DNA from: an uncultured Halomicronema sp.
Lineage (GTDB): Bacteria > Cyanobacteriota > Cyanobacteriia > Phormidesmidales > Phormidesmidaceae
Assembly (NCBI GenBank): GCA_937899725.1
Contig: CALCCA010000113.1
Span: 1 to 64,000, forward strand
DNA length: 64,000 bases
Reading direction: 5' to 3'
Shown here: one piece after another, positions 1,072 to 37,430 of the stretch
Layout: every line of letters starts with the position of its first letter
Position numbering within the stretch: the first letter of the stretch is position 1
Translations under genes and position numbers: made by a program
The notes under the pieces: generated by a model
The model's database searches: none
Told to the model about the DNA's origin: nothing
Seen by the model: the letters and a program-made list of their open reading frames with translations, nothing else

Positions 1072-1121
1072 GGGGCCAAAATCTCAGCAAAAGAATTGCG
1101 TTTGAGGCCCGAAATCACTAG
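1072..1121 (+). promoter_or_regulatory. Class I AraC operator upstream of receptor 1
   Basis: The core TTGCGTTTGAGGCCCGAAAT followed by CACTAG (1096-1121) matches elements before the ABC pair (5178-5203), receptor 2 (10948-10973) and receptor 5 (26406-26430). A second CCAAAATCTCAG-like half site lies at 1076-1087. It is located between an AraC gene and its receptor. The operator role is inferred from conservation and position. Confidence 0.55.
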
Positions 1122-1148
1122 CAAGCGATCGCAAATTCTCTTACGCTA

Positions 1149-1170
1149 GCTGAGAATAATTCGCTTCAAG
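1149..1170 (+). promoter_or_regulatory. Fur-like box upstream of receptor 1
   Basis: The sequence TGAGAATAATTCGCTTCAAG at 1151-1170 resembles half of a Fur palindrome and is repeated with one change upstream of receptor 5 (26461-26480). It lies about 80 bases before the receptor start, between the AraC operator and the gene. Iron-dependent repression is inferred. Confidence 0.5.
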
Positions 1171-1250
1171 CTCAATCACTCAATCTTGGTGGCGGCGCGT
1201 CAGGTCGCCGACCCAATTTCCTGTTGAGCAGAAGCAGCTGTGTGAGGGAC

Positions 1251-3932
1251 ATGATGGGAAAATCGTCACAGAATTGGCATTATCTCTGGGTTTTAGCCGC
1301 CGCGAGCCTACCGATTGCGGTTGCCGAAACGGCTGCAGCACAAGAGTTATCGGATAGAGCGTCCTTGGCTAATCGTTATGGGTTATTCGATCGGCCTCAA
1401 GGACCCGCAACCGATGTTTTTCCCGCTGTCACTTCACCCCCTGACTTCGTCACCCAGACCCCACATCCGACAACGCACACCCCACAACGAGTCACCGTCT
1501 CAGACTCAATTGCTCAGGCCGCAACCGCCCCCATCTCAATCATCGGCATCCAATTGGAGGAGACCGAAACCGGCTTGCAGGTCCGCTTAGAAACCGCTGA
1601 CGGTGACTTGCCGGTGCCGACGACAACGGTGTCGGGCGACGCGCTGATTATCGCAATTGCCAATGCGGTGTTATCGCTGCCCGCAGGCGACGAGTTTTTA
1701 GAGTTTGCCCCCATTGAGGCCATTGCCCTGGTACAAGTCTCAGCTTTACCAGGAAACCAAGTACAGGTGGTGATTACCGGCGCAAACGCGGCCCCCACTG
1801 CCGAGGTTGAGCCCACCGCCACTGGCCTGGCGCTCAGCGTGGTACCGGGCGTAGCTCAAGCGAGTGCAGACGATGAAGCGCTCAGAATTGTGGTCACGGG
1901 TGACGAAGACCCAGGCTATGCCGAGCCCAATACCACCACTGCGACTCGCACCGAGACGCCACTGATTGAGATTCCCCAATCCATTCAGGTCATTCCTGCA
2001 GCAGTGCTAGCAGATCAGCAGGTCATCCGCCTGAGTGATGCGCTGCGAAACGTGCCGGGCGTGGTGCCGGGCAATAACTTTGGCGGCGGTCTCGATATTT
2101 TTACAATTCGTGGGTTCGAGGGAGCGGCCATTCTCCGCGATGGCTTTCGGACTAGTGAATCTGCCAATATTGGTCAAGGGGGTCTTCAGGAAACAGCCAA
2201 CCTAGAACGCATTGAGGTGTTGCGGGGACCGGCTTCGATTCTCTACGGCAATGTCGAGCCGGGTGGCATCATCAATTTGGTCACCAAGCAGCCGTTAGAC
2301 ACCCCCTTTGCTGAGGTGACCACTCAGATCGGCAGCTATGGACTCTTTCGGCCCACGCTCGATGTCACAGGCCCGCTCGACGCTGAGGGCAATATTCGCT
2401 ATCGACTGAATGCAGCCTATGAGCGGGCGGATGGGTTTCGCGATTATGATACCGAGATTGACCGCGTCTTCATCGCCCCGGTGATTGCTATTGATTTGGG
2501 CGATCGCACCGACTTGACACTAAATTTAGAGTACTTCAACGACCAGCGCCCGTATGACAAAGGGATTCCTCCCATCGGGGATGAGTTGGCGGATGTTCCC
2601 CTCGACACGATTATCGGCGAACCCGATGACTTCTTTAGGACGCAAAGTACCCGCGTTGGCTATCGTTTAGAGCATCGCTTTAGTGAGACCTGGCAGCTCC
2701 GTCATCGCTTTCGCTATACCGACAGTAGCTCTGTGAGCCGCCGAACTCAGTTAGAGGAAATCTTGGGGGGTCTAAACGAAGCTACGGGTGACATTACCCG
2801 CCTCTATTACTTCAGCGATAGCGACCTCGATAGCTATGAATTTCAGACGGAGGTGATTGGCGAGTTTGCCACCGGCTCGATCAATCACACCCTACTAGCG
2901 GGCATTGATGTATTTTTTGATGACTCGGACTTTTTTGTTGCCAATGATCTAGCGCCCCCGGTCAATCTATTCGATCCAGAGATTGGGGTCGTCCCCCGGC
3001 CAGACCTACCGTTGACATTTACGACAACTGATACGACCGCCAGTCGCAACCGGGTGGGCCTGCTGCTGCAGAACCAAATCGAACTCTTGCCAGAGGTCAC
3101 TCTGCTGCTAGGTGGGCGGGTTGATTTCTTTAACCAAAGCACCACTGCCGCCGCCGTTTCCATTCCCGGCATCTTTGAAACCCCCGCGCGCGACAATGAA
3201 CAGTCTCAAACGGCGTTTACCCCACGGGTGGGCATCGTCTATCAGCCGACGCCAGAACTGGCTCTGTATGCCAGCTACAGCCGCTCCTTTGAGCCCAACC
3301 TCTTAACGGCCACTACCCTTGAGGGCGAATTTCTGGACCCGGAGGAAGGCGAACAATTTGAGGTGGGTCTGAAGACGGAGCTGTTCGACGGGCAGCTCGC
3401 GGCCACCCTCTCTTTCTTTGATATTAGTCGCACCAATGTGGCAGCTGCAGACCCCAACAGTATCAACTCTGTCGTGCCGATTGGTGAGCAGACGAGTCGG
3501 GGAATGGAATTTAATGTGACCGGGGAAATCCTGCCGGGGTGGAACATTCTGGCCGGCTTGAGTTTATTAGATGCGGAAATTGAAGAAAGTGTCAATTTTG
3601 CAGCGGGCGCCACGCCGCCCAATGTCCCGGAAACGGCAGCCAGCCTGTGGACAACCTACGAAATTCAGTCGGGTGACCTAGCGGGACTGGGCTTTGGGTT
3701 GGGACTGTACTACGTGGGCGAACGCCAAGGGGATAATGAAAATACTTTCACGATGGACGAATATTTGCGTACCGATGCGGCCATTTACTACCGCCAGGAA
3801 GATGTCCGCCTCGGGCTCAATTTTCGCAATCTCTTCGACATCAACTATTTCGAGAGTACCGAGGCGGGGCGGGGTGGCACGACACCGGGTGAGCCCTTCA
3901 CCGTCATCGGCAGCGTTTCCGTCACGTTTTAG
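1251..3932 (+). CDS. TonB-dependent siderophore receptor 1 with AMIN domain
   Basis: Outer-membrane gated channel for ferric siderophores, about 893 residues. An N-terminal signal segment ending near ETAAAQE is followed by a linker and an AMIN domain at about residues 95-200 (ISIIGIQLEETETGLQVRL). A TonB-box-like RIVVTG comes next, then the plug (IPQSIQVIPAAVL, RGPASILYGNVEPGG) and a C-terminal beta barrel ending in aromatic GSVSVTF. AMIN fusions of this kind are typical of cyanobacterial receptors. The ATG at 1251 is preferred to the TTG at 1224 because it follows a conserved GTGTGAGG leader and begins a normal signal peptide. The SBP gene begins 14 bases after the stop, with a Shine-Dalgarno sequence overlapping the stop. 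The substrate is not deducible; the class is FhuA/FecA-like. Confidence 0.93.
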   Translation: MMGKSSQNWHYLWVLAAASLPIAVAETAAAQELSDRASLANRYGLFDRPQGPATDVFPAVTSPPDFVTQTPHPTTHTPQRVTVSDSIAQAATAPISIIGIQLEETETGLQVRLETADGDLPVPTTTVSGDALIIAIANAVLSLPAGDEFLEFAPIEAIALVQVSALPGNQVQVVITGANAAPTAEVEPTATGLALSVVPGVAQASADDEALRIVVTGDEDPGYAEPNTTTATRTETPLIEIPQSIQVIPAAVLADQQVIRLSDALRNVPGVVPGNNFGGGLDIFTIRGFEGAAILRDGFRTSESANIGQGGLQETANLERIEVLRGPASILYGNVEPGGIINLVTKQPLDTPFAEVTTQIGSYGLFRPTLDVTGPLDAEGNIRYRLNAAYERADGFRDYDTEIDRVFIAPVIAIDLGDRTDLTLNLEYFNDQRPYDKGIPPIGDELADVPLDTIIGEPDDFFRTQSTRVGYRLEHRFSETWQLRHRFRYTDSSSVSRRTQLEEILGGLNEATGDITRLYYFSDSDLDSYEFQTEVIGEFATGSINHTLLAGIDVFFDDSDFFVANDLAPPVNLFDPEIGVVPRPDLPLTFTTTDTTASRNRVGLLLQNQIELLPEVTLLLGGRVDFFNQSTTAAAVSIPGIFETPARDNEQSQTAFTPRVGIVYQPTPELALYASYSRSFEPNLLTATTLEGEFLDPEEGEQFEVGLKTELFDGQLAATLSFFDISRTNVAAADPNSINSVVPIGEQTSRGMEFNVTGEILPGWNILAGLSLLDAEIEESVNFAAGATPPNVPETAASLWTTYEIQSGDLAGLGFGLGLYYVGERQGDNENTFTMDEYLRTDAAIYYRQEDVRLGLNFRNLFDINYFESTEAGRGGTTPGEPFTVIGSVSVTF

Positions 3933-3946
3933 GAGGCTGATACAGG

Positions 3947-5026: not shown

Positions 5027-5150
5027 CCGACCAACAGACACCGCTCACGCCCCAAACTGATAGCAAAGGCACCATCGCCGCCTATAGGCCCCTTGCAAAG
5101 CCATGAATTAGCGAGAGCAGTACCAGGAGAACTGTAAAAGTGCCACCCCC

Positions 5151-5203
5151 AAAAGTGTGCAGCGAGTTCAAAAAAAAGTGTGTTTGGGGTTCAAAATCTC
5201 TAG
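5151..5203 (+). promoter_or_regulatory. Tandem class I AraC operator before the ABC pair
   Basis: Two direct repeats of AAAAGTGTG...GTTCAAAA start at 5151 and 5174, a 23-base period (about two helical turns). The second extends to TTCAAAATCTCTAG, matching the class I core upstream of receptors 1, 2 and 5. The position 66 bases before the ABC gene suggests that the exporter-fold pair has its own siderophore-responsive promoter. Confidence 0.55.
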
Positions 5204-5268
5204 TATTTTGCGCGCGCTAACCGTACCCTAATCGACGAACTCAAGCCGTCGTATGGTCTCTTGATCGA

Positions 5269-7041
5269 ATGAGATTAGCCTTTCGCCAGTTCACGTCAAA
5301 TCCCTACACTCGTTTGCTGGGGCGCTATCTCAAATCCCAGCGACTGCGCGTGGTGGGGCTGGCCCTCACCCTATTTTTCAGTATTGCCCTGCAGCTCATT
5401 AATCCCCAAGTTCTGCGTTACTTCATCGATACCGCGCTCAATCCAGAGCCAGGTGCATCCCTGCCGCAAGCAGCGCTTCTATTCATCAGTATTGCCCTCA
5501 TCACACAGGGCTTGACTCTGATGAGCACCTACTTAGGAGAAACGGTTGCCTGGCAAGCCACCAATGCGCTGCGGACCGATCTCGCGGCCCATTGCCTACA
5601 CCTCGATCTCTCCTTTCATCAGTCTCGCACCCCGGGTGAACTGGTCGAGCGGGTCGATGGCGACGTCACCACACTGGCCCGCTTTTTTGCTCAATTTACC
5701 CTCTACATCTTGGGTAACAGTCTGCTGCTGCTGGGCATCCTCGCCGTGCTGTGGTTAGAGGATTGGCGAGCGGGGTTGAGTTTGACTCTGTTTGTCCTAT
5801 TTGCCTTCGGCGGTTTAACCCGTCTCCTGCGATTTGCCTTACCGGTCTGGGTGGCTTATCGCCAGCTCAGTGCTCGCTTTTTTGGTTTTCTCAGTGAATA
5901 CTTGGCGGGTCGAGAAGACCTACAGGCCAATGGCAGCAACGGTTATGTGATGCATCGCTTCTATCAAATGCTGCAGCAGTGGTTGCCCATTTTTCACCGG
6001 GCGCGCTGGGCTCAAACGGTGCTCTGGAGCAGCTCAGTGGCGCTCTTAACGACGGGCAATATCATCGCCCTCAGTGTCGGTGCCTATCTCTGGTCTCAGC
6101 AGGCCATTACGATCGGCACGGTGTACCTGATTTTTTATTACACCAATCAGTTACGGCAGCCCATGGCGAGTATTCTGAGTGAACTGAGCGATTTCCAGCA
6201 GGCCCAAGCCAGCATCCTGCGGGTACAAGAGCTACTCACGACGCCGTCACGTCTCCCCCCGGCAGGCGATCGCCCGCTGCCCAGCGACGCCTTGGGGGTA
6301 ACCTTCGACCACGTGGGGTTTAGTTACGACGCGGATCCGCCCCATGACTGGGCTTTGCAGGATGTCTCTTGGTGCTTACCTGCCGGTCAGGTGTTGGGGG
6401 TGGTCGGTCGCACGGGCAGTGGCAAAACGACGTTAACGCGCCTGCTGTTGCGGTTCTATGCGCCCCAGGCGGGGACGATTAGTTTAGGTCAAGTTCCCCT
6501 TGAGACGGTGTCTCCGGCCGGCCTCCGGCAGCGAGTCGGCATCGTCACTCAGGACGTGCAACTGTTTCAGGCCAGCGTGCGCGATAACTTGACGCTGTTT
6601 GACCCGGCCATTGAGGATGGCCAAATTCAGCACGCTTTAGAGGCTTTAGGGCTGCTCGATTGGCTGCGATCGCACCCCCAAGGGCTCGATACGCTGCTCG
6701 CTGCTGACAGTGGTGGGCTGTCAGCGGGCGAGGCCCAGCTTCTGGCCTTTGCTCGCATCTGGCTGCGAAACCCCAGTTTAGTGATTCTCGACGAAGCTTC
6801 TTCCCGCCTTGATCTGCTGACAGAACGTCGCGTTGAGCAGGCCACCCAACAGTTGATGCAAGGACGCACCGGGATCATCATTGCCCATCGCCTCAGCACG
6901 CTCCAGCACGTCGATTACATCCTCGTTTTAGAGCAGGGAAAAGTCGTTGAATATGGCCCCCGCCAGGACTTGGCAAACCAATCAACCTCACGCTTTGCCC
7001 GCCTTTTACAGAGGTCTCAAACCGTTCCTCCCGCACTTTAA
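5269..7041 (+). CDS. Exporter-fold ABC transporter subunit A, catalytic Walker B
   Basis: Fused six-helix ABC type-1 membrane domain (residues ~20-320) and nucleotide-binding domain, 590 residues. Walker A is GRTGSGKTT near residue 380, the Q-loop region is TQDVQLFQASVRDNL, and Walker B LVILDEASS near 504 keeps the catalytic Glu. The switch His is in IIAHRLST. The signature motif is LSAGE (near 483) instead of LSGGQ. This complements the partner at 7080, which has LSGGQ but lacks the catalytic Glu, the classical layout of an asymmetric heterodimer. It sits in module 1 behind a class I operator, so siderophore export or YbtPQ/IrtAB-like import is the likely role. Confidence 0.88.
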   Translation: MRLAFRQFTSNPYTRLLGRYLKSQRLRVVGLALTLFFSIALQLINPQVLRYFIDTALNPEPGASLPQAALLFISIALITQGLTLMSTYLGETVAWQATNALRTDLAAHCLHLDLSFHQSRTPGELVERVDGDVTTLARFFAQFTLYILGNSLLLLGILAVLWLEDWRAGLSLTLFVLFAFGGLTRLLRFALPVWVAYRQLSARFFGFLSEYLAGREDLQANGSNGYVMHRFYQMLQQWLPIFHRARWAQTVLWSSSVALLTTGNIIALSVGAYLWSQQAITIGTVYLIFYYTNQLRQPMASILSELSDFQQAQASILRVQELLTTPSRLPPAGDRPLPSDALGVTFDHVGFSYDADPPHDWALQDVSWCLPAGQVLGVVGRTGSGKTTLTRLLLRFYAPQAGTISLGQVPLETVSPAGLRQRVGIVTQDVQLFQASVRDNLTLFDPAIEDGQIQHALEALGLLDWLRSHPQGLDTLLAADSGGLSAGEAQLLAFARIWLRNPSLVILDEASSRLDLLTERRVEQATQQLMQGRTGIIIAHRLSTLQHVDYILVLEQGKVVEYGPRQDLANQSTSRFARLLQRSQTVPPAL

Positions 7042-7079
7042 CTCCTCCCCTGTCTTCACCCCACCACGCCCTCTCCGCG

Positions 7080-8924
7080 ATGACCCTGCCCACCCCGCTG
7101 CCCCTCTGGCCCCTACTCTGGCGCTTGATTTGCTACACCCCGAAACTGGCCCTCGTAGACGCTGGACTGTGGCTGCTGATTTCGGGCGTCTTTCCGGCGA
7201 TTCCCGGTCTGATTATTCAAGGGTATTTTGATGCCCTGACCGAGACTGCCCCCCTGGCACTGTCGCCTCTAGCCTTCCTCGGTTTACTCGTCGCGACGAG
7301 TGTGGGAGAAATTGTGGCGCTCTTTGCCGGTCAGTGGGTGCGCACCCAGTATCGCTTTAACCTGCGATCGCTGCTGCGTCACAATCTCTTAGACCAGCTT
7401 TTACAGCAACCCGGCGCCCAGCCCTTATCGATTGCGGAGGGGCCACAAAGGCAAACGATCTCACCCGGAGAAGCCATCTCCTACTTTCGCGAAGACCCCG
7501 AACTGATTGAGCAAACCATCGTCAAAACCGCCGACCTGATCGGGTACGGACTTTTCGCCCTGGGCGCGATCGGGCTCTTGCTGAGGCTCAACCCTCAGAT
7601 CACCCTGATGGTCTTTCTCCCTCTAGCGGTGATCTCAGCGGCGGTTCAGCAAGCTCAACAAAAGATCAAGCAATATCGTCGGGCGAGCCGTCGGGCTACG
7701 CAAGCCGTCACCGGATTTCTCGGGGAAATCTTTACTGCGGTGCAAGTGCTCAAAGCAACCGGCACCGAAACCGCTGTCCTCAATCACCTCAATCACCTTA
7801 ATGGCCAGCGTCAGCAACAAATGGTGAAAGACCGATTGCTGATCACAGTCCTCAATTCTGGCTTCGAGAACCTCACCAACCTCGGGATCGGCTTCATTCT
7901 TTTATTGATGGCCACCGGCCGTACATCGGCCACCAGCGGGCTCTCCGTGGGTGATTTTGCCTTGTTCATTTACTATCTAGCTTTGGTCGCAACTGCTTTC
8001 CGGGCCTTTGGCCAGTATCTGACTTGGTTAAAACAAACCGAAGTCTCGTTTGAGCGCTTAAGGGCGCTGCACCGACCAGACTCGCTCACCGAGCATCGCA
8101 GTTCGCCAGCGGCGGCAGCATTTGCACTGGTCGCCCATCAACCGCTTTATTTGGCTGGGCTTTGGGGTCGCCAACCGCCACTGCCCCCCCTCCAGCCGCC
8201 TCACCCAGAGGCCCCATCTCATTTCAAAGAGTTGGCTGTTGTCGGCCTCTCCTATCACTATCCCCACGCTAGCCGAGGCATTGAAGCGATTAGTTTCTCG
8301 TTGCGCCGAGGTAGCCTCACCGTCATTACGGGCCCGGTCGGCTCCGGCAAAACCACCCTTCTGCGCGTCCTGTTAGGATTGCTCCCTCGCCAAACTGGCA
8401 CGATTTATTGGAACGGCCAACCCGTTGAGCATCCCGCCACTTTTTTCTGCCCTCCCCGTAGTGCCTACACACCCCAGGTGCCGCATTTATTTAGCGATAC
8501 CCTCCGCAACAATCTCTTGCTGGAGTTAGAAAAATCCGACGCTGCCCTTGGTGAGGCTCTCCGCCTGTCAGTTTTTGCCCAAGACGTTGGGGCCATGCCC
8601 ATGGGTTTGGCCACCTTAGTGGGCACCCGAGGGGTGCGCCTCTCAGGTGGGCAACGCCAGCGCGCGGCGGCAGCGCGAATGCTGGTACGCCAGCCCGAAC
8701 TCTTGATCTTTGACGATTTATCTAGCGCCCTTGATGTTGAGACCGAGCAAAGTTTGTGGGAAGGACTCTTTGCCACTGGCCAGGCCACTGCAGCGGGACG
8801 GCCAACTTGCCTGATCACGTCTAACCGACCCGATGTCCTGCGCCGGGCCGATCGCATTATTGTCTTGAATGAGGGACGAATCGAGGCGATGGGTCGCTTT
8901 GATGAATTGCCATCGCTCAGCTAA
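7080..8924 (+). CDS. Exporter-fold ABC transporter subunit B, degenerate ATP site
   Basis: Second half of the pair, 614 residues, 38 bases after subunit A. An N-terminal membrane domain is followed by a nucleotide-binding domain with Walker A GPVGSGKTT near residue 417 and signature LSGGQ near 520. Walker B is LLIFDDLSS near 541, where the catalytic Glu is Asp. The switch position reads ITSNRPD, with Asn instead of His. Its canonical signature therefore completes the active site of subunit A, while its own Walker site is expected to bind but hardly hydrolyse ATP. Known heterodimers such as TM287/288 show the same division. Substrate is unproven; module context points to a siderophore. Confidence 0.88.
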   Translation: MTLPTPLPLWPLLWRLICYTPKLALVDAGLWLLISGVFPAIPGLIIQGYFDALTETAPLALSPLAFLGLLVATSVGEIVALFAGQWVRTQYRFNLRSLLRHNLLDQLLQQPGAQPLSIAEGPQRQTISPGEAISYFREDPELIEQTIVKTADLIGYGLFALGAIGLLLRLNPQITLMVFLPLAVISAAVQQAQQKIKQYRRASRRATQAVTGFLGEIFTAVQVLKATGTETAVLNHLNHLNGQRQQQMVKDRLLITVLNSGFENLTNLGIGFILLLMATGRTSATSGLSVGDFALFIYYLALVATAFRAFGQYLTWLKQTEVSFERLRALHRPDSLTEHRSSPAAAAFALVAHQPLYLAGLWGRQPPLPPLQPPHPEAPSHFKELAVVGLSYHYPHASRGIEAISFSLRRGSLTVITGPVGSGKTTLLRVLLGLLPRQTGTIYWNGQPVEHPATFFCPPRSAYTPQVPHLFSDTLRNNLLLELEKSDAALGEALRLSVFAQDVGAMPMGLATLVGTRGVRLSGGQRQRAAAARMLVRQPELLIFDDLSSALDVETEQSLWEGLFATGQATAAGRPTCLITSNRPDVLRRADRIIVLNEGRIEAMGRFDELPSLS

Positions 8925-9730: not shown

Positions 9731-9872
9731 ATGCCGCATTTCAAGAGCCCAACCGAATGTGTATACGTAGTTGCTTCGGGAGGAGGAGGAAGCCGGTTTC
9801 TCAAAAGTTGAGAGTTGCCCACACCGGATTTATTGGCCAGTCCCGACGCAGTACGGTTCATTGACAAAACCT

Positions 9873-10973
9873 ATGGCAATCGAACTTTTACTTAACCACC
9901 CCGACGATTGGTTGCAGCCCGAGAGCGCTAGCCAGATTAACCTGCCTCACGTCAGCTATACCGACACCACCATGCGGTGTCCGCAGGCCTTAGGGCGGGG
10001 GTATCGACAATGCCTGGCGATGCGCGATGGGTTGAGCATCGTCATCTTAGATTATGAATTTCACGATGATTTTGTTAGAAAAATTCAAGCGTTTGAGCGC
10101 CCCGTGGGGCTAGAGCTCGCGTTTATGTTGACGGGCCCCAATGTCGGGCAGAGCAAATTGTTTCTCGCTGCGGGTCGGGAAATTGCCAGCTCTATCGGTC
10201 GCTATCCCGGTCATCAGCGCATCTTGAAAGTGGAGCTGCATCTCCAGTTACCCATGCTGCAAGTTTTTTTAGACGGTTTATTGGAGGCATTACCAGCCCC
10301 ACTGAAACCTTCTGCTGACGAGTATTTTGAAAAGTTTTACTCACGGCAAATCCCCCCGCTGAGCCCCCTCATCGAGCAGGCCTACTCGCTGGCCAGTTGG
10401 GCCGTGATTACGCCTCAAATGATGCAGGTATTGCAGCAGATTCTCAGCTGCCCCTATCGGGGGCTCAACCGCTGGGTATACCTGGAGGGCAAAGCCACCG
10501 AACTGATGACCTTGCGATCGCAGCAAATTGTCGAGCAACTGGTCAGTTTTGACCAGCAACTGGCGGCGCCAGCGACGCTACCACCGGATGAACTCAACCG
10601 CATTTACCAGGCCAAGGAACTGCTGCTCAGTGATTTACAGCATCCCCCGTCAATTCCGGAATTGGCGCAACACGTCAATCTCAATCGCCGGAAACTGAAT
10701 GAAAGTTTCCAGCAGGTATTTCACATGACCCCGTTTGAGTATTTGCAAGACTACCGATTAAAGCAGGCGCAAAGCATCTTGAAGTGTCCCGATACGAAAG
10801 TTGAGGACGTGATTCAAACCGTCGGCTACCGGAGTCGCAGCAACTTTGCCGTGGCGTTCCGCAAAAAATTTGGCCTCAATCCCAAACTCTATCAGCAGCA
10901 GCAGCTAAAGGGGCCGTCTGAAAAGTGCGTTGGCGGTTCGCAAGAAAGTGCGCTAACGGTTCAAAAGCCCTAG
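9873..10973 (+). CDS. AraC/PchR-type regulator of module 2
   Basis: AraC-family activator of about 366 residues. The N-terminal ligand-responsive part shares the layout of regulators 1 and 5. The C-terminal double-HTH domain includes LNRRKLNESFQQVFHMTPFE and VGYRSRSNFAVAFRKKFGLN. The ATG at 9873 (MAIELLLNHPDDWLQP) is chosen over the TTG at 9771 because it aligns with the start of the paralogue at 25155. The last ~18 codons run beyond the usual family end and are written through the tandem operator of the next gene. Probably activates receptor 2 and perhaps other class I promoters. Confidence 0.88.
   Translation: MAIELLLNHPDDWLQPESASQINLPHVSYTDTTMRCPQALGRGYRQCLAMRDGLSIVILDYEFHDDFVRKIQAFERPVGLELAFMLTGPNVGQSKLFLAAGREIASSIGRYPGHQRILKVELHLQLPMLQVFLDGLLEALPAPLKPSADEYFEKFYSRQIPPLSPLIEQAYSLASWAVITPQMMQVLQQILSCPYRGLNRWVYLEGKATELMTLRSQQIVEQLVSFDQQLAAPATLPPDELNRIYQAKELLLSDLQHPPSIPELAQHVNLNRRKLNESFQQVFHMTPFEYLQDYRLKQAQSILKCPDTKVEDVIQTVGYRSRSNFAVAFRKKFGLNPKLYQQQQLKGPSEKCVGGSQESALTVQKP
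10921..10973 (+). promoter_or_regulatory. Tandem class I AraC operator overlapping the regulator 2 tail
   Basis: AAAAGTGCGTTGGCGGTTCG at 10921 and AAAGTGCGCTAACGGTTCAA at 10945 are direct repeats with a 23-base period. The second ends in AAAAGCCCTAG, where TAG is also the stop codon of regulator 2. It resembles the tandem before the ABC pair. It lies 113 bases before the receptor 2 start. Confidence 0.55.
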
Positions 10974-11085
10974 CACGTTTTGCCCACAATCCATATTCTG
11001 CTTATTGAAAAGGGTTATCAAGTAACCCAGAGGCTGTCACCCCCGGTTCACGTCTGGAGGTAGTCCATTTTGGCAGTGAAAAAAC

Positions 11086-15119: not shown

Positions 15120-16115
15120 ATGGCAAACGTCTTAACCGGTACTGAAGTTCAGGAAATCTTGCAGGCGTGCCGCGCCCAGGGGGCAGTGGCCGATTACGTC
15201 GAGGGGGCGGAACATTTTTTTGAGCTGCCCGCAAAACTCGGGCGCGGTTACTGGCGCAAAATCGAGCTCCGTCCTGGCTGGCAGCTCAGCTTGAGTGATC
15301 TGGAGAAACGCCAGATTCATCGTCACCGCATTCGCCAACATCCCCAGCCCATGCCACTCACCTTTAGCTACTATCTGTCGGGGGGCTGCCAGGTTGAGAA
15401 TGACGGCCTCAAGATGACCCAAGAAGAGGTTGCCGGTCACAGCTATCTCTACTGCTTACCAGCGACAGCGGAGGTTGAGCAGTACCCTGTCGGACAGCGA
15501 ATTCTCAACCTGACGCTGAGAATTCAGCCAGATCTACTGCCGGCGGTGAGCGATCGCCTGCATGAACTGCCCACTGAGATTCGCACCGCGATCGAGCAGC
15601 CTGAGCAAGCGATGCTGTACGCGGCGGGTCGCATTACCCCAACGCAGCAGCAGGTACTGAAGCAAATTTTTCACTGTCCGTATCAGGGCCTGACACGGCA
15701 GTTTTATCTAGAGGCCAAAGTCTTAGAACTGCTGGCGCTACAGTTTGATCAAATGCTGTCGTCGTCCCAGTCGCCAGCGTTGGCCGTCAACGACATTGAT
15801 CGCATTTATCAAGCCCGTGAGATCTTAATCCGCGAGATGACTGGCCCGCCCTCGCTCACCGAGTTGGCCCGGCAGGTGCAGCTAAACGAGCGCAAATTGA
15901 AGGAAGGCTTTCGGCAGGTCTTTAAGACCACTGTTTTTGGCTATTTGCAGACATATCGGCTGCAACAGGCTCGACAACTGCTCCAGGCGGGTGGCACCAC
16001 CGTTCAAGCGACGGCCCACGATGTGGGCTATGCCAGTCGCAGCTCTTTTGTGGCCGCGTTCAAAAAGCAGTTTGGGGTGACGCCCAGCAGCTGCTGTCAG
16101 CCGTCTAGTCGCTAG
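15120..16115 (+). CDS. AraC/PchR-type regulator of module 3
   Basis: AraC-family protein of 331 residues with C-terminal double HTH (LNERKLKEGFRQVFKTTVFG, then VGYASRSSFVAAFKKQFGV). The N-terminal half includes YYLSGGCQVENDGLKMTQEE, shared almost exactly with regulator 4 and more loosely with regulator 6, but not with regulators 1, 2 and 5. It therefore belongs to a second regulator subgroup that accompanies IutA-like receptors. A Fur-like box precedes it and a tandem GAAGAC operator lies just downstream. Confidence 0.92.
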   Translation: MANVLTGTEVQEILQACRAQGAVADYVEGAEHFFELPAKLGRGYWRKIELRPGWQLSLSDLEKRQIHRHRIRQHPQPMPLTFSYYLSGGCQVENDGLKMTQEEVAGHSYLYCLPATAEVEQYPVGQRILNLTLRIQPDLLPAVSDRLHELPTEIRTAIEQPEQAMLYAAGRITPTQQQVLKQIFHCPYQGLTRQFYLEAKVLELLALQFDQMLSSSQSPALAVNDIDRIYQAREILIREMTGPPSLTELARQVQLNERKLKEGFRQVFKTTVFGYLQTYRLQQARQLLQAGGTTVQATAHDVGYASRSSFVAAFKKQFGVTPSSCCQPSSR

Positions 16116-16126
16116 CGTTCAGAAAA

Positions 16127-16163
16127 GTCCGGTTAGAAGACACAAACAGTTCTTTTGGAAGAC
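16127..16163 (+). promoter_or_regulatory. Class II tandem AraC operator upstream of receptor 3
   Basis: GTCCGGTTAGAAGAC (16127-16141) and GTTCTTTTGGAAGAC (16149-16163) are direct repeats with a 22-base period. The same GAAGAC-ended tandem occurs before receptor 4 (21091-21126). Two direct repeats about two helical turns apart fit AraC-family binding. Confidence 0.55.
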
Positions 16164-16199
16164 GAGATCACCCTTGCTGTCACCACCAACCACGATATC

Positions 16200-16221
16200 T
16201 TACTGAGAACAGTTCTTAACT
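16200..16221 (+). promoter_or_regulatory. Fur-like box upstream of receptor 3
   Basis: The near-palindrome TTACTGAGAACAGTTCTTAA lies 50-70 bases before the receptor ATG and downstream of the AraC operator, the order also seen in modules 1, 4 and 5. Confidence 0.5.
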
Positions 16222-20906: not shown

Positions 20907-21090
20907 GAAAGCAGCTGGGAAATACGGGACCCGCCGGTGGCCATGGGTGAATGGGAAAAATCCAGGTTTCAGGTTCCAGGTTTTAGTTCAAGGCAAACCT
21001 CGGTACCGGTTACCCTGCACCGTACACCGATCTCCTTATGCGCCGTACACCCTGAATCAGCCGTCCACTTGAGCATCAAAATCACGGAAA

Positions 21091-21126
21091 ATCGCTCTCG
21101 AAGACAAAACGATTAGGCTCGAAGAC
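21091..21126 (+). promoter_or_regulatory. Class II tandem AraC operator upstream of receptor 4
   Basis: ATCGCTCTCGAAGAC (21091-21105) and ATTAGGCTCGAAGAC (21112-21126) repeat with a 21-base period and share the GAAGAC core with the operator before receptor 3. Confidence 0.55.
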
Positions 21127-21160
21127 AGTTTCGGCTTAACGCTGGCTAGCGCACCGCGTA

Positions 21161-21185
21161 GTATTGAGAACAATTGTTAATAATC
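21161..21185 (+). promoter_or_regulatory. Fur-like box upstream of receptor 4
   Basis: TATTGAGAACAATTGTTAAT (21162-21181) contains the near-palindrome AACAATTGTT and resembles the box upstream of receptor 3. It lies 35 bases after the AraC tandem and about 105 bases before the receptor ATG. Confidence 0.5.
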
Positions 21186-25154: not shown

Positions 25155-26243
25155 ATGACGACTCGACTGCAGTTAAAAAATTGGACTGATTGGCTCTTGC
25201 CCAGTGATGCAGACTATACCCGGTTGTTACATGCGGATGTGTCTGACCACATTCAAGTCTGTCCGCCGCAGTTGGGGCACGGCTATTTGCAAAAAATCAC
25301 CTTGCGAGATGATCTGACCCTGGTGATTTTGGACTACACGCTCCACCAAAATGTGGTGGTGGACGCCGCCGGTGAGGGGGAGAGCCTTGAACTGACCTTC
25401 CATCTGGATAGTCGGACGCCCGGATACAGTTTTTTCTGTCCCGATTTTGGCCTGAGGGACTTAGCCGTGATGCCGACTCAACAGCGCTTTTTTAAAGTTG
25501 AGCTGTTCTTTAAACGCCCCACGCTCGCGCCCTACTATCAAACATTTTTAGAGCGATTGCCCGCCCAGACGTATGACACCGTCGAACACATCATTCAATC
25601 TCTGAGCCGGACTCCAGGGCGCATGGCCAGAACTCATGTGGCTGAAAAGTTAGACCACTTACAACAGGCTGCAACTGCCAACACTGTCTGCCGTTGGAGT
25701 CAAAGCTTGACAGATATGATCGGCCGGGAAGAGATCACCCTGAACCATGCCGTCCGCAGCCCCGTAACGCCCGCGATGAAGTCAGTGATCGGGCGGATCT
25801 TGAGTTGTCCTTACCAAGGTCGCACTCGCCGCGCCTATCTCGAACGTCAAGCGCTCAAGCTGACCGCCCTGCGCTTTGACGCGATGATTGCATCTCGCCA
25901 ACTGGCCGCCGACCGCGATTGCATTTATCAAGCAGCCGCCATTTTAAGACAAGAGTTTGCGCAGCCCCCGAGTATCGAAAAGCTGGCTCGTCAGGTTAGC
26001 ACCAATCGTTTCAAGCTCAATCAAGGGTTCCATGAGGTTTATGGAACGACCCCCTTTGGCTATCTACGAGACTGTCGCCTCTTGCATGCCCGCCGCTTGT
26101 TGATGACGTCAGGACTCTCCATTAGCCAAGTGGCAACTGCCGTCGGCTATACCTGCCGGAGCAAATTTGCCACGGCCTTTCGGCAGCAAATGGGTCTTAA
26201 TCCCAAAGCGTTTCAAATGCAGGCTTGGCGGTTAGTCAGCTAA
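25155..26243 (+). CDS. AraC/PchR-type regulator of module 5
   Basis: Intact AraC-family regulator of 362 residues and the best full-length template for the truncated regulator 1. N-terminal part with DWLLPSDADY, middle region, and C-terminal double HTH (GTTPFGYLRDCRLLHARRLL, VGYTCRSKFATAFRQQMGLN). It is followed by a class I operator and receptor 5. Because receptor 5 carries two stops while this gene is intact, it may now mainly serve other class I promoters such as those of modules 1 and 2 (inference). Confidence 0.92.
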   Translation: MTTRLQLKNWTDWLLPSDADYTRLLHADVSDHIQVCPPQLGHGYLQKITLRDDLTLVILDYTLHQNVVVDAAGEGESLELTFHLDSRTPGYSFFCPDFGLRDLAVMPTQQRFFKVELFFKRPTLAPYYQTFLERLPAQTYDTVEHIIQSLSRTPGRMARTHVAEKLDHLQQAATANTVCRWSQSLTDMIGREEITLNHAVRSPVTPAMKSVIGRILSCPYQGRTRRAYLERQALKLTALRFDAMIASRQLAADRDCIYQAAAILRQEFAQPPSIEKLARQVSTNRFKLNQGFHEVYGTTPFGYLRDCRLLHARRLLMTSGLSISQVATAVGYTCRSKFATAFRQQMGLNPKAFQMQAWRLVS

Positions 26244-26393: not shown

Positions 26394-26430
26394 TGCGCTG
26401 ACAAAATGCGTTTGGGCACCAAAATCTCTA
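26394..26430 (+). promoter_or_regulatory. Class I AraC operator upstream of receptor 5
   Basis: The core AAATGCGTTTGGGCACCAAA and following ATCTCTA (26404-26430) matches the class I elements at 1096-1121 and 5178-5203. A partial upstream TTTGCGCTGACAAAA (26393) may be a second, weaker site. Confidence 0.55.
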
Positions 26431-26457
26431 CCCAGCGATTAGCAATTCCGATACCGT

Positions 26458-26480
26458 ACTTGAGAATGATTCGCTTCAAG
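26458..26480 (+). promoter_or_regulatory. Fur-like box upstream of receptor 5
   Basis: TGAGAATGATTCGCTTCAAG at 26461-26480 differs from the module 1 box (1151-1170) by a single base. The equal order of operator, Fur-like box, leader and receptor supports modules 1 and 5 being duplicates. Confidence 0.55.
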
Positions 26481-26560
26481 TCAAGCGATGGCTGGAGAAG
26501 ACGGCTAGAGCCTGATCTCCCCGCGCAACTGGGCTTGGAAACTGGTGTGTGAGGAAGCTG

Positions 26561-29200
26561 ATGGAAAACAGATGGCTGGGGTTGAAACTATCGCTCCTGT
26601 TAACTGCGGGTGGGCTAACCGGGATAGCAGAAGCCGCTGGGGCTCAATCGGCCTCTGAAGCTGGGGCACCCCAAATTCTGAAAGCGGCAGCAGCAAAGGC
26701 GTCGCCAGATAGCTTGGTGACGGGAACGGCGCTGTTCTCATTGGTGAATGAGGCGATCGCGTCCCCTCCCTCATCATCCCTAGCGCCAACTGACGACGCT
26801 GACAGGCTGGCCCAAACAGACTCAACACCGGTCGCCATCACCGATATTCAAATCGAGTCCACCGAGACTGGTTTGCAAATCGTGCTGACCACCGCCGAGG
26901 GCGAACTCGCCGCACCTGACACCTCGACCGTCTCGGGCAATGCTCTGATTCTCGAAATTCCTCATGCCACGCTGGTTCAGGCTGAATTTCAAGAATTTCA
27001 ACCCGCTGAGGGCATTGCGCTCATTCAGGCTTCGGAGTTGCCAGGAGATCGGGTCCGGCTGGTAATTACGGGGGCCGATGCTGCTCCTGTCGCTGAAGTT
27101 GATGCAGCAGCGACCGACCTCGTCTTGAACATTACGCCCGGTGTCGCGATCACCGGGGATGTCGCTGAAGACGCCATTCAAATTGGTGTGGTGGGTGCTG
27201 ACTCAGACGATTATGTTGTCCCCAATGCCACCACCGCCACCCGCACCGATACGCCCCTGCGAGACATTCCCCAATCGATTCAGGTCATTCCGCAAGCCGT
27301 ACTCGAAGATCAGTAAGCCATCCGCCTGAATGACGCGCTGCGCAATGCCAGTGGTGTGGTCGCGGGCTCTAATGATCCGCGTGGTCAACGTTTTACGATT
27401 CGCGGCTTCGACAGTGCTTCCGTGCTGCGCGATGGGTTTCGCCTGACCAATGGGGGCACAGGCAATATCGGCTTTCCCGAACTGGCCAACATCGAGCAAT
27501 TAGAGGTGTTGAAAGGTCCCGCTGCCATCCTGTTCGGTGCTCTAGAGCCCGGCGGCGTGATCAACCTCGTCAGCGAACAGCCCTTGAGTGACCCTTTTTA
27601 TGAGCTAAGTTTTCGCGGTGGCAATCGCGCGCTGGTCGAACCCGGTATTGATATATCCGGGCCCGTGACCGCAGACGGCCGGGTGCTCTATCGATTGAAC
27701 GCGCTCTATCGGCGAGAGGATTATTTTCGCGATTTCACTAATCCAGTAGAGCGGTTTTTCTTTGCCCCTATCGTCAGTATCGCCATTAACGAACAAACCG
27801 ATCTCACGTTTGAAGTGGAATACCGCGACGACGAACGGCCCAATGATTTTGGGTTAGTGGCGATCGGTGATGAGGTCGCTGATATCCCCTTTGATCGGGC
27901 GCTGAACGATCGCGATCAAACGGCCACGGCTGAGTTTGTTAGAGCCGGTTATCGGTTTGAGCATCGGTTTAACGACGACTGGAAACTCCGTAATGCTTTT
28001 TACTACACTCAATCTGACACCAGCGTCATCGTCGGGTTTGGGCCGGGTTTCAACGAAGCTGCTGGTACCATTTTTAGTATCCCCGTGCGGCTCAATCAGC
28101 CCACCGACTCATTTGAATTGCAAACCAACGTTGTCGGTGAATTTTCGACCGGCGCAATTAACCACACGCTGCTGGCGGGGGTTGACCTCAATCGTCGCCG
28201 CGACGACGGCACCGAAGCCCGTGGTGATTTGTCGATCATCAACGCGCTCAACATTTTTGACCCAGATTACGATAGCTTGGTGACGCCAGACTTCGAAACG
28301 GCCCCGGTAGTGTTGAGTTCTGATGGCAACACTGACAGTTTGGGCATTTATCTGCAAGACCAAATTACGCTGCTCGATAATCTCAAGCTGCTGGTGGGCC
28401 TACGCTACGATACTGTCGATCAAGAAAACTTTAATGCCAGCTTTCGCAACCCGGCGGGCGCTGAGATCACCCGCTTTGATGATGCGTTTAGTCCCCGAGT
28501 GGGCTTGGTTTATCAGCCCATTGAGGAAGTTTCTCTCTACACCAGCTACAGTCAATCGTTTGCGCCTAACTTTGGCAACACCGCTGATGGAGAGATCCTT
28601 GAACCTGAGCGCGGCGAGCAATTTGAGCTGGGCACTCGCGCCGAACTACTAGCGGGGCGACTCATCGCCAATCTGGCTTTGTTCAGTATTACGAAAGAAA
28701 ATGTCGCCACGACGGATCCTGATGAGCCGCTCTTTTCCGTGGCGATCTGAGAGCAACGCAGTCGCGGGGTCGAACTCGATGTGATTGGTGAAATTTTGCC
28801 AGGGTGGAATATCGTCGCCAACTATGCCTACACCGACACCGAAATTACCGAAGACAATGATGGGTTAGAGGGGAATCAACTATTTGGAGTCCCAGAGCAC
28901 AACGCCAACCTATGGACGACTTACGACATTCAAGCGGGACCACTCAGCGGCCTAGGGTTGGGAATCGGCGTCAACTTTGTCGGAGAACGCTTTGGTGATA
29001 ACGCTAACAGCTTCACACTAGATAGCTACTTTCTTACCAATGCCGCGATCTCCTACCAACGCGATAACTGGCAGGCCGGCCTCAATTTCCGCAACTTGTT
29101 TGATGTGAACTATATCGAAAGTGCTGAAAATAGCCGCACCGGCGAAATCAATCCGGGAGAAGGGTTCACTGTGGTGGGGTCAGTATCGGTTGAATTTTAA
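26561..29200 (+). pseudogene. TonB-dependent siderophore receptor 5, two in-frame stops
   Basis: AMIN-plug-barrel receptor of the FhuA/FecA class with the full length of the family (about 879 codons) but interrupted twice. TAA at 27314-27316 lies in the plug, after VLEDQ where paralogues read DQQ. TGA at 28748-28750 lies in the barrel, after FSVAI where paralogues have a Gly codon (IGEQ). All three segments are in one reading frame, so no indels have occurred and barrel features remain conserved to the terminal GSVSVEF. This suggests very recent inactivation, two sequencing errors, or recoding. Start ATG at 26561 (MENRWLGLKLSLLL) follows GTGTGTGAGG. SBP5 follows after 67 bases and is intact. 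Confidence 0.85.
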
Positions 29201-30441: not shown

Positions 30442-30464
30442 AACAGGAATCAATCTCATTTGAG
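30442..30464 (+). promoter_or_regulatory. Possible Fur-like box at the start of regulator 6
   Basis: AACAGGAATCAATCTCATTTGAG (split as AACAGGAATC, AATCTCATTTGAG) contains the inverted half site CTCATT and lies just before the proposed ATG at 30481. It is a moderate match only. Confidence 0.3.
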
Positions 30465-30480
30465 CGCAGTGGTTTACCCC

Positions 30481-31533
30481 ATGCCGTCGAGTTCCTGTCC
30501 ATCCCTTCCCCGATCCGCTCGCCCACCCACCCTGTCAACCACGGACTGGCAGGCGATCTGCCAGCAGGCCCAGCAACGCGGCGAACAACTCTGTCAGACT
30601 GCTGCAGGCGGCACTCAAACCTTCTTGCCGCAGCGCTTAGGAAAAGGGAGCGAGCACCACATCAATCTGCGGGGCGGCCTTTCGCTCACTATTCGCCAAG
30701 GCCACCTAAGACGCCCCCTGCGCTATGCCTCCGAACATGGTGCAGATTTTCCACTGGTGGCTAAGTTCTATCTATCCGGTTCGTCACGGGTAGAGACGCC
30801 TAATGTGGCCAACGTCAAAAGCACCTATGAAGAGCGCCAGGGTTGCCACTATCTCTATCATTTACCTAATTTGACGGAGGTCGAAGAGTGGCCTGCGAAT
30901 GAATCGCTGCAAGTGGTCTACGTTTGTGTTGAGCCGAACTACTTCCGCACTTTTGAGATGGGTAAAGCAGCGCCGATCACCTCCCTACAATCGCTGCTTC
31001 ACGCAGAGACGTCGCACCGCTTTCATCAACCTTTGGGCCGCATCACGGCTGAAATTGGACAGATACTCCGGCAGATTACGCACTGTCCCTATGCCGGCAT
31101 CATGCAGCAGCTCTATTTAGAGAGTAAGGCTTTAGAACTGTTGACCCTCCAGTTTGCTACCTGGGCAGAGCAGCATTCCCAGCAGCCAGCGATCGCTCTC
31201 AAATCCCCCGACATTGAGCAGCTTTATCAGGCGAGAGACATTCTGCAGCAGCAAGCCGATCAGCCGCCGTCACTGACCGAATTGGCACGTCAGGTGGGGT
31301 TGAACGATCGCAAGCTCAAGCAAGGATTTCGGCAACTGTTTGGCACTACGGTCTTTGGTTACCTACAAAACTATCGTCTAGAGCAGGCCCAACTGCTGTT
31401 GAAAAATGCCGATTTCACGATCGCGCAAGTCGCGTTAAAAGTGGGCTACACCAACCCAGAAGCCTTTAGCACAGCCTTTCGGCGAAAATTTGCGGTCAGT
31501 CCCAAAGCGTATCAATTGGGCAGACATCGTTAA
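30481..31533 (+). CDS. AraC/PchR-type regulator of module 6
   Basis: AraC-family protein of about 350 residues. The C-terminal double HTH contains LNDRKLKQGFRQLFGTTVFG and VGYTNPEAFSTAFRRKFAV. The N-terminal half is related to regulators 3 and 4 (a FYLSGSSRVETPNV segment with a CHYLYHLPN motif) but diverged. ATG at 30481 is preferred over TTG at 30460; the choice is uncertain because the N-terminal ~25 residues are low-complexity. A class III tandem operator follows directly after the stop. Confidence 0.9.
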   Translation: MPSSSCPSLPRSARPPTLSTTDWQAICQQAQQRGEQLCQTAAGGTQTFLPQRLGKGSEHHINLRGGLSLTIRQGHLRRPLRYASEHGADFPLVAKFYLSGSSRVETPNVANVKSTYEERQGCHYLYHLPNLTEVEEWPANESLQVVYVCVEPNYFRTFEMGKAAPITSLQSLLHAETSHRFHQPLGRITAEIGQILRQITHCPYAGIMQQLYLESKALELLTLQFATWAEQHSQQPAIALKSPDIEQLYQARDILQQQADQPPSLTELARQVGLNDRKLKQGFRQLFGTTVFGYLQNYRLEQAQLLLKNADFTIAQVALKVGYTNPEAFSTAFRRKFAVSPKAYQLGRHR

Positions 31534-31575
31534 GGTCCGTTTGCCAAAGAAAAAAGTCCGTTTGGCAAAGAAAGT
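31533..31575 (+). promoter_or_regulatory. Class III tandem AraC operator upstream of receptor 6
   Basis: GGTCCGTTTGCCAAAGAAA and AGTCCGTTTGGCAAAGAAAG are direct repeats with a 21-base period starting immediately after the regulator stop. A close copy with the same period stands before the MFS transporter (37391-37430). Confidence 0.6.
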
Positions 31576-31663
31576 CATCGCTCATCCCCACTACCATGCT
31601 GTCACCAAGCCAATTAAGAATGGCTGGCATTAGTGTGTGACCGACTCGGGTGAACGGAGCGTG

Positions 31664-35549: not shown

Positions 35550-35575
35550 TGTTTCATCCCAGCAGGTCATTGCCC

Positions 35576-36265
35576 CTATTGCGGGAGGTCATTGGGGTCG
35601 ATGCCTTGCGATCGCAAATAAGCTTCCAGGCGTTCCACTCGTTGCCGTTCCTGCTCTGCGGCACTGAGGTGACGATGGCCCTGAGCGTCGTACCAGGTCA
35701 AAAGTTCTTGCGGTATGCCACCAAATTGGCCCTGATAGCGACCGATACCCAGTCCCGCTTCCGGCATCCAGTAAGGTTCGCCGATTTGCAGTCGATAAGT
35801 ATCGCCCTCTAGTTTGTAAACCTCAAACGGCTGATGGCGATCGCGCTGCCAAAACTCGGGGTTGTAAATCACGTAGTACAGCACCCCGAGTTGGCTGTAG
35901 GTTTCCAGTTTGCGGGTGTATTCATCCCCTGGCTGGTGAGACACTATCTCCAGCACGAATATCGGTGGAACGTTTTGCTCTTCCCACATCACATAGCTGC
36001 GCCGCGACTTACCGCCCTTTTTGCGCTCTACTCCCAGGCTGAGAAAGCCATCGGGCACTACCGGCACCAAATGACTTGGCCCAGTGGTGTGGTAAACCGC
36101 CATATCAGCCCCAAAGTACCAGTCCAGGCGCTCTGACCACAGATGCGTCAACAGCAGCAACAGCAAATTGGGCAGCAGATTCTGATCTTCATTATCCACT
36201 GGAGTATCGTCCGAGCAGGGAAGTTCTGCGGCACTGGGTAGCGATTGATTGACGGATGACAACAT
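35576..36265 (-). CDS. Uma2-family (DUF820) predicted endonuclease
   Basis: About 229 residues with the PD-(D/E)XK-like Uma2 core: VPDGFLSLG (metal-binding Asp), VLEIVSHQPGDEYTRKLETY (Glu and Lys) and the C-terminal segment RQRVERLEAYLRSQGIDPND. Uma2 genes are highly repeated in cyanobacteria and their biological role is not settled. The ATG at 36265 (MLSSVNQSLP) is preferred over the longer 36301 start. The gene is convergent with SBP6 and lies between SBP6 and a decayed SBP6-like tail, so it looks inserted. Confidence 0.85.
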   Translation of the reverse strand: MLSSVNQSLPSAAELPCSDDTPVDNEDQNLLPNLLLLLLTHLWSERLDWYFGADMAVYHTTGPSHLVPVVPDGFLSLGVERKKGGKSRRSYVMWEEQNVPPIFVLEIVSHQPGDEYTRKLETYSQLGVLYYVIYNPEFWQRDRHQPFEVYKLEGDTYRLQIGEPYWMPEAGLGIGRYQGQFGGIPQELLTWYDAQGHRHLSAAEQERQRVERLEAYLRSQGIDPNDLPQ

Positions 36266-36362
36266 GATGAGTCGTTTCGCTCCGCAAGGGGGCAATTGCA
36301 CTAATTATAGTGACTCTTCTTTGGGCAAGTTGCGCGATGTTCCATTGGAGAGGCTGCGCCAA

Positions 36363-36493: not shown

Positions 36494-36651
36494 ACAACAG
36501 TAGGTAGCTCTGATGAGGCTTCCCCTTTAACCGCAGAGTGCAAGCCCCGTTTGGAGGTTGCTAAAACTAGCGGCGAAGACCTTGTCGGCTGGCGATCGCC
36601 GCCGACCGATAAGGTCTGAGGATATTGTCAAATAAATTAGGCTTAGCCCCG

Positions 36652-37385
36652 ATGAACTGGAATATCGCAATCGCGACTGGTGGTAGCGCCAGTCTGGAAT
36701 TTTTAGAAACAGCGGTCATTGCTTATGCGATCGCTCGTTCGGGTTACAGACGGGAAGCGATCGCTGGCTGCCTGATTGGCATCTCTGCGGTTGCCCTGGC
36801 GGCGATCGCGCTGGGCACGAGTATCCAAGCGATTCCCCTGCACTGGCTGCAAATCGTCACTGGTGTCGTGTTGCTGTGGTTTGGTTGGGGCTGGGCCAAA
36901 AAAGCGGTACAGCGCAAGCTAGTGGCCGGCGGGCGGGCTGGTTAGATGACGATCCCCTCGCTGCCGAAGCGATTTCTCTAGAGACGGAGCAGCGAGGATT
37001 TAGCACCGCCAACTTTATCGTCATGACGAAGAGTGCTGCTTTGGAAGCCTTTGAGATCGCTGTCATTGCCATCACTCTAGGCACCGCCTCTAATGCTTGG
37101 CGTGAAGTCTTGGGCGCAGTTGGCGTTGCCGGTGTGGGCTCAGTGGTGTTGGTCGTTGCCCTACATGCTTACCTACTCAAGGTGCCGGATGTGTTCATCA
37201 AGTTGGGTACGGGTATCTTGCTGTCGGCTCTAGGCACATTCTGGCTGGGAGAAGGGCTGGGGTGGGATTGGCCTTTGGGAGACTGGGCCATTTTGGGCTT
37301 GCTGGGCCTGTTTAGCCTGATTGCGGCTCTATCGATCTTTTGGCTCAGGCGCAGAGATCAAGAGACGGCTAGTTTACCCGGCTGA
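36652..37385 (+). pseudogene. COG4280-type membrane protein, frameshifted
   Basis: Two overlapping frames together make one protein. Residues MNWNIAIATGGSASLEFLET to LLWFGWGWAKKAVQRK are in the first frame (36652-36945). The second continues from about 36930 with LDDDPLAAEAI, SAALEAFEIAVIAITLGT and a final helix block to 37385. The duplicated LEFLETAVIAYAI / LEAFEIAVIAITL halves, each starting with an acidic helix, are characteristic of the COG4280 predicted membrane protein family. A single frameshift near 36915-36945 breaks it. The function of the family is unknown. GC-rich and HIP1-containing like the general chromosome. Confidence 0.7.
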
Positions 37386-37390
37386 AGCAA

Positions 37391-37430
37391 AGTTCGTTTA
37401 GCAAAGAAAAAACTCCGGCACGCAAAGGAA
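37391..37430 (+). promoter_or_regulatory. Class III tandem AraC operator before the MFS transporter
   Basis: AGTTCGTTTAGCAAAGAAA and ACTCCGGCACGCAAAGGAA are direct repeats with a 21-base period, the same motif and spacing as the tandem in front of receptor 6 (31533-31575). It lies about 55 bases before the GTG start of the transporter. Confidence 0.55.

Follow-up and report, generated by a model that had tools for sequence, protein, structure and literature searches.

Putative tandem operators of PchR/IutR-type AraC regulators in a Halomicronema genome and their covariation with two recognition helices

XylS binds the Pm promoter at two homologous 15-bp direct repeats, each with a 5' box A and a 3' box B, placed 6 bp apart with a period of 21 bp; contacts to the promoter are made by its recognition helices 3 and 6, and binding of the dimer activates transcription (PMC5481539). 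In Synechocystis the PchR-like AraC regulators IutR1-3 (sll1205, sll1408 and slr1489) are encoded upstream of TonB-dependent receptors and bind the receptor promoters in electrophoretic mobility shift assays and yeast one-hybrid experiments, with sites that differ among the three proteins (PMC11221513). Helices 3 and 6 also contact DNA in MarA, and the helix 3 residues Trp42, Gln45 and Arg46 of MarA/Rob/SoxS make base contacts and can be given new specificities, orthogonal sites included (PMC3315485). Recognition codes, where residues of the DNA-binding domain correlate with operator bases, exist for the LacI, MerR, GntR and IclR families (PMC2978694, PMC5045206, PMC4494728, PMC8222616), and a search of the open literature, which lacks most subscription papers, found no such study of AraC-family regulators. 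Here, 64,000 nucleotides from an uncultured Halomicronema sp. (contig CALCCA010000113.1, positions 1 to 64,000, referred to as the window) were analysed, containing six AraC-type regulators, R1-R6, together with short repeated elements. These elements are very probably AraC/XylS-type activator operators, lying immediately 5' of the promoter from which the gene after each PchR/IutR-type regulator is transcribed, and their sequence appears largely predictable from the regulator as a graded, modular code, the 5' bases tracking residues of helix 3 and the 3' bases residues of helix 6.

Operators in the window and in 193 regulators

All six regulators carry the C-terminal double helix-turn-helix (HTH) domain typical of the AraC/XylS family, with HTH_18 above its curated cut-off in 6/6, and a gene for a TonB-dependent receptor is located directly 3' of the regulator in every cassette (the frame of the receptor after R5 is broken). 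The regulators, with helices identified by HTH_18 and alignment, and two further gene units with operators of their own, an ATP-binding cassette (ABC) pair and a major facilitator superfamily (MFS) gene, are:

123-1052, plus strand: R1, PchR/IutR-type AraC regulator, helix 3 NRLTLTQ, helix 6 YTSRNRFAT
5269-8924: ABC pair
9771-10973, plus strand: R2, AraC regulator, helix 3 NRRKLNE, helix 6 YRSRSNFAV
15120-16115, plus strand: R3, AraC regulator, helix 3 NERKLKE, helix 6 YASRSSFVA
19908-20906, plus strand: R4, AraC regulator, helix 3 NENKLSQ, helix 6 YASRSSFVA
25155-26243, plus strand: R5, AraC regulator, helix 3 NRFKLNQ, helix 6 YTCRSKFAT
30460-31533, plus strand: R6, AraC regulator and reference for residue numbering, helix 3 NDRKLKQ, helix 6 YTNPEAFST
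37483-38781: MFS gene

All intergenic regions of the window were read and the best repeat at an offset of 20-24 was scored against 300 shuffles. T0 marks the T that opens the TCCG-like core, and operator bases are numbered from it. The following units were found:

1091-1112, plus strand: R1 operator, single unit, T0 1097, -1 base T
5150-5171, plus strand: ABC-pair operator, unit 1, T0 5156, -1 base G
5173-5194, plus strand: ABC-pair operator, unit 2, T0 5179, period 23, -1 base G, predicted R2 target
10920-10941, plus strand: R2 operator, unit 1, T0 10926, -1 base G, within the 3' end of the R2 open reading frame
10943-10964, plus strand: R2 operator, unit 2, T0 10949, period 23, -1 base G
16122-16143, plus strand: R3 operator, unit 1, T0 16128, -1 base G, 3' half AGAAGAC
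16144-16165, plus strand: R3 operator, unit 2, T0 16150, period 22
21086-21107, plus strand: R4 operator, unit 1, T0 21092, 3' half CGAAGAC
21107-21128, plus strand: R4 operator, unit 2, T0 21113, period 21
26401-26422, plus strand: R5 operator, single unit, T0 26407, -1 base A
31530-31551, plus strand: R6 operator, unit 1, T0 31536, -1 base G
31551-31572, plus strand: R6 operator, unit 2, T0 31557, period 21
37387-37408, plus strand: MFS operator, unit 1, T0 37393, -1 base G, predicted second target of R6
37408-37429, plus strand: MFS operator, unit 2, T0 37414, period 21

The tandem repeat was matched by none of the 300 shuffles for R6 and R2, by 4 for R3, 5 for the ABC pair and 7 for the MFS gene. 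An earlier note on this DNA had cited six tandem repeats recurring every 21-23 bases; all six exist with that period, but the R4 repeat by itself is not significant, being equalled in 44/300 shuffles. R1 and R5 showed no tandem repeat beyond chance (185/300 and 263/300 shuffles) and have one unit each; when a second, upstream unit was looked for at 20-24 bp none was found. A gapped partial copy of the unit was spotted by eye ~32 bp upstream of R1.

When the motif search, in iterated form, was extended to relatives, as the earlier note had proposed, a tandem operator was detected for 130 of 193 distinct PchR/IutR-type AraC regulators from the host genome and other genomes, compared with 11/185 upstream control regions. 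Ungapped direct repeats (at least 15/18 identity) downstream of the regulator occur at offset 21 in 46 regulators and at offset 22 in 15, while any other offset between 12 and 40 gave at most 4 regulators and shuffled sequence gave 0; upstream of the regulators, 7 repeats were found at offset 21. The operator unit reads AAAAA-n-TCCG-[TG][CT]T, after which positions 7-13 form a variable stretch of ~7 bp. Of the 130 tandem operators, 86 have a period of 21 and 31 a period of 22, in agreement with the AraC/XylS trait of direct repeats spaced by about two turns of the helix along a single DNA face. The operator lies shortly after the stop codon of the regulator or, in 29 of the 102 strongest, begins inside its 3' end, and the median distance from the second unit to the start of the next large gene is 107 bp in these 102.

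Recognition helices and operator bases

To relate protein to operator, the mutual information between each operator position and 310 aligned protein columns was calculated as a sequence-weighted permutation Z (effective number ~100). The columns scoring best for operator positions -1 to 2 were 284, 291, 287, 282, 285 and 283, all in helix 3 of HTH1, and those for positions 7 to 13 were 335, 330, 337, 334, 333 and 332, each located in helix 6 of HTH2. Helix 3 holds 6/7 of the top columns for the 5' half (hypergeometric p ~1e-9) and helix 6 holds 6/7 for the 3' half (p ~5e-10), and the covarying columns align with the SoxS helices. The simplest rule concerns the -1 base, where Arg-Lys at residues 284-285 is paired with G (46/48), Cys-Thr with T (40/40), His-Lys with C (9/10), and a Tyr or Phe preceding Lys, Leu or Met mostly with A.

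These rules bear on the proposal of the earlier note that the operators fall into three discrete classes, each matched to a regulator subtype, with possible crosstalk inside class I (R1, R2, R5 and the ABC pair). Its class II (R3 and R4) holds in that helix 6 is identical and the 3' half contains GAAGAC in both; the 5' halves of the two differ, as do their helix 3 sequences (NERKLKE and NENKLSQ). Class III likewise holds, R6 and the MFS gene having the 3' half and the -10 spacing in common. In class I, R1, R2 and R5 all have an N-R-x-x-L-[NT] helix 3, which is accompanied by a TGCG/TGTG core instead of TCCG and speaks for a common class, but the -1 bases differ as residues 284-285 predict (R1, Leu-Thr, T; R5, Phe-Lys, A; R2, Arg-Lys, G, as in the ABC operator), the 3' halves differ, and the tandem arrangement is found for R2 and the ABC pair with a period of 23 bp but not for the single units of R1 and R5, which the note had not listed among its clear cases. 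The match of subtype to class is borne out by overall protein identity for R3/R4 (58%) and R1/R5 (52%) and not for R2, which is only 33-36% identical to R1 and R5 despite the common helix 3 type. Crosstalk within class I is accordingly predicted to be low, given the differing -1 bases, 3' halves and unit numbers, and three discrete classes are an unlikely description; what stands, on computational grounds, is an AraC-type direct-repeat operator specific to each neighbouring regulator, within a graded and modular code.

The earlier note also held that motifs occurring at random genome positions would speak against its operators. In the genome scan the class III tandem (R6 pattern, at most 3 mismatches) was found at 31534 only, and the class I consensus at 26404 and at one chance-like site. 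The bare GAAGAC pair proved unspecific as a genome-wide marker (8 matches versus 10 in the control) and was rejected, as was the genome-wide tandem TCCG pattern with 2 mismatches (36 versus 14), which is dominated by scattered AACTCCGAATTCCG simple repeats. AACTCCGAATTCCGAACTCC-type simple repeats, dispersed over many contigs of the host genome, imitate tandem TCCG operators in such pattern scans.

The graded code was further examined by nearest-neighbour prediction restricted to proteins less than 45% identical. Helix 3 recovered the -1 base at 0.69, compared with a baseline of 0.35 and with 0.26 for helix 6, 0.33 for the rest of the domain and 0.40 for the N-terminal domain, while positions 9-13 were best recovered from helix 6 (0.50, 0.64, 0.49, 0.74 and 0.69; baselines 0.34, 0.43, 0.37, 0.49 and 0.48). 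The rules were then frozen before new loci were analysed, and only regulators less than 70% identical to any training protein were scored, giving a new set of 71 regulators, 36 of them with a strong operator. In this set the -1 base was correct in 50/54 and Arg333 was accompanied by C at position 13 in 34/34 (at less than 50% identity 21/22 and 18/18, respectively), and the nearest-neighbour test gave the same helix-specific pattern as in training. When operators were swapped among regulators the -1 rule fell to a mean of 0.35 and a maximum of 0.59 (1000 shuffles). Covariation and held-out prediction both point to helices 3 and 6 as the elements that would set the operator sequence.

Another explanation would be that the match between repeats and regulators is merely ancestral, reflecting duplicated cassettes of regulator, operator and receptor with no functional matching. 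The cassettes are clearly duplicated, as is evident in the window from direct-repeat families, and close relatives have common operators. Ancestry is, however, common to all protein columns and leaves unexplained a signal that falls on two short, SoxS-aligned stretches, with no concentration in the N-terminal domain or elsewhere in the DNA-binding domain; the prediction also holds among proteins less than 45-50% identical, and phylogenetically independent pairs, on a tree built without the helix columns, agree with the rule of Arg284 and G at -1 (~5.5 pairs agreeing, 0.0 opposing, median p 0.03). This explanation is thus largely refuted and considered very improbable.

As a mechanism for activator operators read by both helices, one monomer would read one unit of ~16 bp, HTH1 (recognition helix 3) reading the near-constant 5' half, nTCCG, and HTH2 (helix 6) the variable 3' half. 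At a distance of two helical turns (21-22 bp) a second monomer would occupy the same DNA face, and together the two would recruit RNA polymerase to a -10 box at a fixed distance, with a Fur-like box near the start site adding iron repression at many of these promoters. Paralogues would be kept apart by helix residues and operator bases changing in step, and it is this joint change that would make operator identity predictable from the helices. A response to ferri-siderophore as co-activator, a trait of the PchR/IutR group, may be expected; the N-terminal domain of the regulators is too weakly conserved for the ligand to be deduced. Binding, activation, ligand dependence, insulation and regulon assignment are all predictions made from sequence.

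Promoter placement and neighbouring features

When the region downstream of the strong operators was analysed, taking the second unit's T0 as zero, a TAnnnT hexamer was found exactly at +35 in 44% and at +46 in 37% (background 2.2%), two spacings 11 bp or about one helical turn apart. All 8/8 operators of the window have such a hexamer, and the putative elements are:

1142-1147, plus strand: predicted -10 box of R1, TACGCT, +45 from the T0 of its single unit
1151-1165, plus strand: Fur-like 7-1-7 box of R1, TGAGAATAATTCGCT, 12/14
5224-5229, plus strand: predicted -10 box of the ABC pair, TACCCT, +45
10994-10999, plus strand: predicted -10 box of R2, TATTCT, +45
16196-16201, plus strand: predicted -10 box of R3, TATCTT, +46, then a Fur-like box at 16204-16218
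21159-21164, plus strand: predicted -10 box of R4, TAGTAT, +46, then a Fur-like box at 21165-21179
26452-26457, plus strand: predicted -10 box of R5, TACCGT, +45, then a Fur-like box at 26461-26475
31592-31597, plus strand: predicted -10 box of R6, TACCAT, +35
37449-37454, plus strand: predicted -10 box of the MFS gene, TAGGAT, +35

Fur-like 7-1-7 boxes follow 72/102 operators, compared with 13 in shuffles, and in the +46 group most of them have their centre between +59 and +63; in the window they score 11-12/14 for R1-R5, and R6, the MFS gene and the ABC pair have no good match. The fixed -10 spacing, as in class II-type activators, and the Fur-like boxes, both overlooked in the earlier note, place the repeat elements in promoters. 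That the repeats are instead sites of another factor (e.g. a sigma factor or Fur) or elements of the transcript, for instance attenuators, as the nearby Fur-like boxes and -10 elements might suggest, is the least probable of the explanations considered, since a common factor would not yield a differing, internally repeated sequence for each regulator that covaries with its own helices, and since the Fur-like boxes are separate elements centred near +61.

The spacing may be loosely tied to the type of helix 6, as regulators with Arg333 favoured +46 in the training set (33/38 with one clear spacing), and this is kept as a lead. Some findings weigh against the operator code as outlined here. For about a third of the regulators a tandem operator could not be detected; R4 violates the -1 rule (Asn-Lys predicts C, A is observed); most tree-based rules other than that of Arg284 are suggestive only, mostly in the same direction but with too few supported independent pairs (4-8 in most) to reach significance; the pairing of Arg287 with G at position 2, which had looked promising in training, was not reproduced in the new set and was dropped; and the tie between residue 333 and -10 spacing was weak in the new set (Fisher p 0.05), so that a strict rule from this residue to promoter spacing was rejected. 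A family-wide, collinear two-helix code across cyanobacteria, where the operator and hence the regulon could be read from helices 3 and 6 and the promoter would have two geometries, a helical turn apart and tending to go with the type of helix 6, is on balance somewhat favoured, and is held with less confidence than the operators themselves.

Among the neighbouring features of the window, the receptor after R5 (26549-29200) is split into three frames, 26549-27316, 27356-28750 and 28781-29200, either by a frameshift and an in-frame TGA or by an assembly error. Receptor 1 (1224-3932), the only receptor scanned for domains, has an AMIN domain N-terminal to the plug, and a gene of the Uma2-type endonuclease fold is located on the minus strand between the R6 cassette and the MFS gene (35576-36301).

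Regulon assignment and comparison with known systems

Both copies of the ABC operator carry G at -1, and this operator has a GTTC end like that of R2 and the 23-bp period of R2, on which grounds the ABC pair, located just upstream of the R2 gene, is assigned to R2 as its most likely driver in addition to the receptor. In the same way R6 most likely drives the MFS transporter also, the MFS operator matching that of R6. The host genome (7.0 Mb) contains 44 HTH_18 matches, 22 receptors and ~29 PchR/IutR-type regulators, and several regulators outside the window precede RTX/PPC proteins rather than TonB-dependent receptors, so that this family of regulators is no longer limited to iron receptors. 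At L050 and L051 (contigs C19 and C76) and on C45, some of the tidiest operators (copies 18-20/20 identical) belong to regulators that precede very large proteins of ~1070-1540 amino acids; those scanned have PPC and RTX calcium-binding domains and are not TonB receptors. Two tandem operator-like sites, C73:3146 and C73:15866, lie near a receptor cluster and not directly after a collected regulator, and are candidates for extra regulatory targets.

Among 18 strong operators of the host genome the two copies of an operator agree at 7.0/8 specificity positions and operators of different regulators at 3.3/8; 1/153 operator pairs reaches at least 7/8, and as the C19 operator is listed twice (L050|7 and L059|4) that pair may be one site. 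Such low overlap is what insulation would predict. Work on circuit separation among large sets of paralogues has usually dealt with two-component systems and LacI-type repressors, and here one genome holds ~29 sister regulators with largely non-overlapping operators. The code yields predictions that can be tested at a single residue and a single base, allows receptors and transporters to be assigned to regulators without experiment, and makes available a natural supply of orthogonal activator/promoter pairs for use in cyanobacteria.

The AraC/XylS-type machinery is the known part of this system; the predictive, modular specificity code among paralogues appears to be undescribed. The closest functional relatives of the window regulators are IutR1-3; the study of these gives chromatin immunoprecipitation motifs, has 0 occurrences of direct repeats in its text and, in the parts consulted, does not describe a residue-to-base code (PMC11221513). 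Residues 284 and 287 of R6 align, through SoxS, with the positions of Trp42 and Gln45. MarA, Rob and SoxS are bound to single sites as monomers, and their re-specification was achieved with laboratory mutants and is unlike a natural code among paralogues. The codes of the LacI, MerR, GntR and IclR families follow the same statistical principle in other protein families. XylS at Pm resembles the window operators in its 21-bp direct-repeat geometry and in the use of helices 3 and 6, but represents one regulator with one operator, whereas here many paralogues each have a diverged unit in the same geometry.

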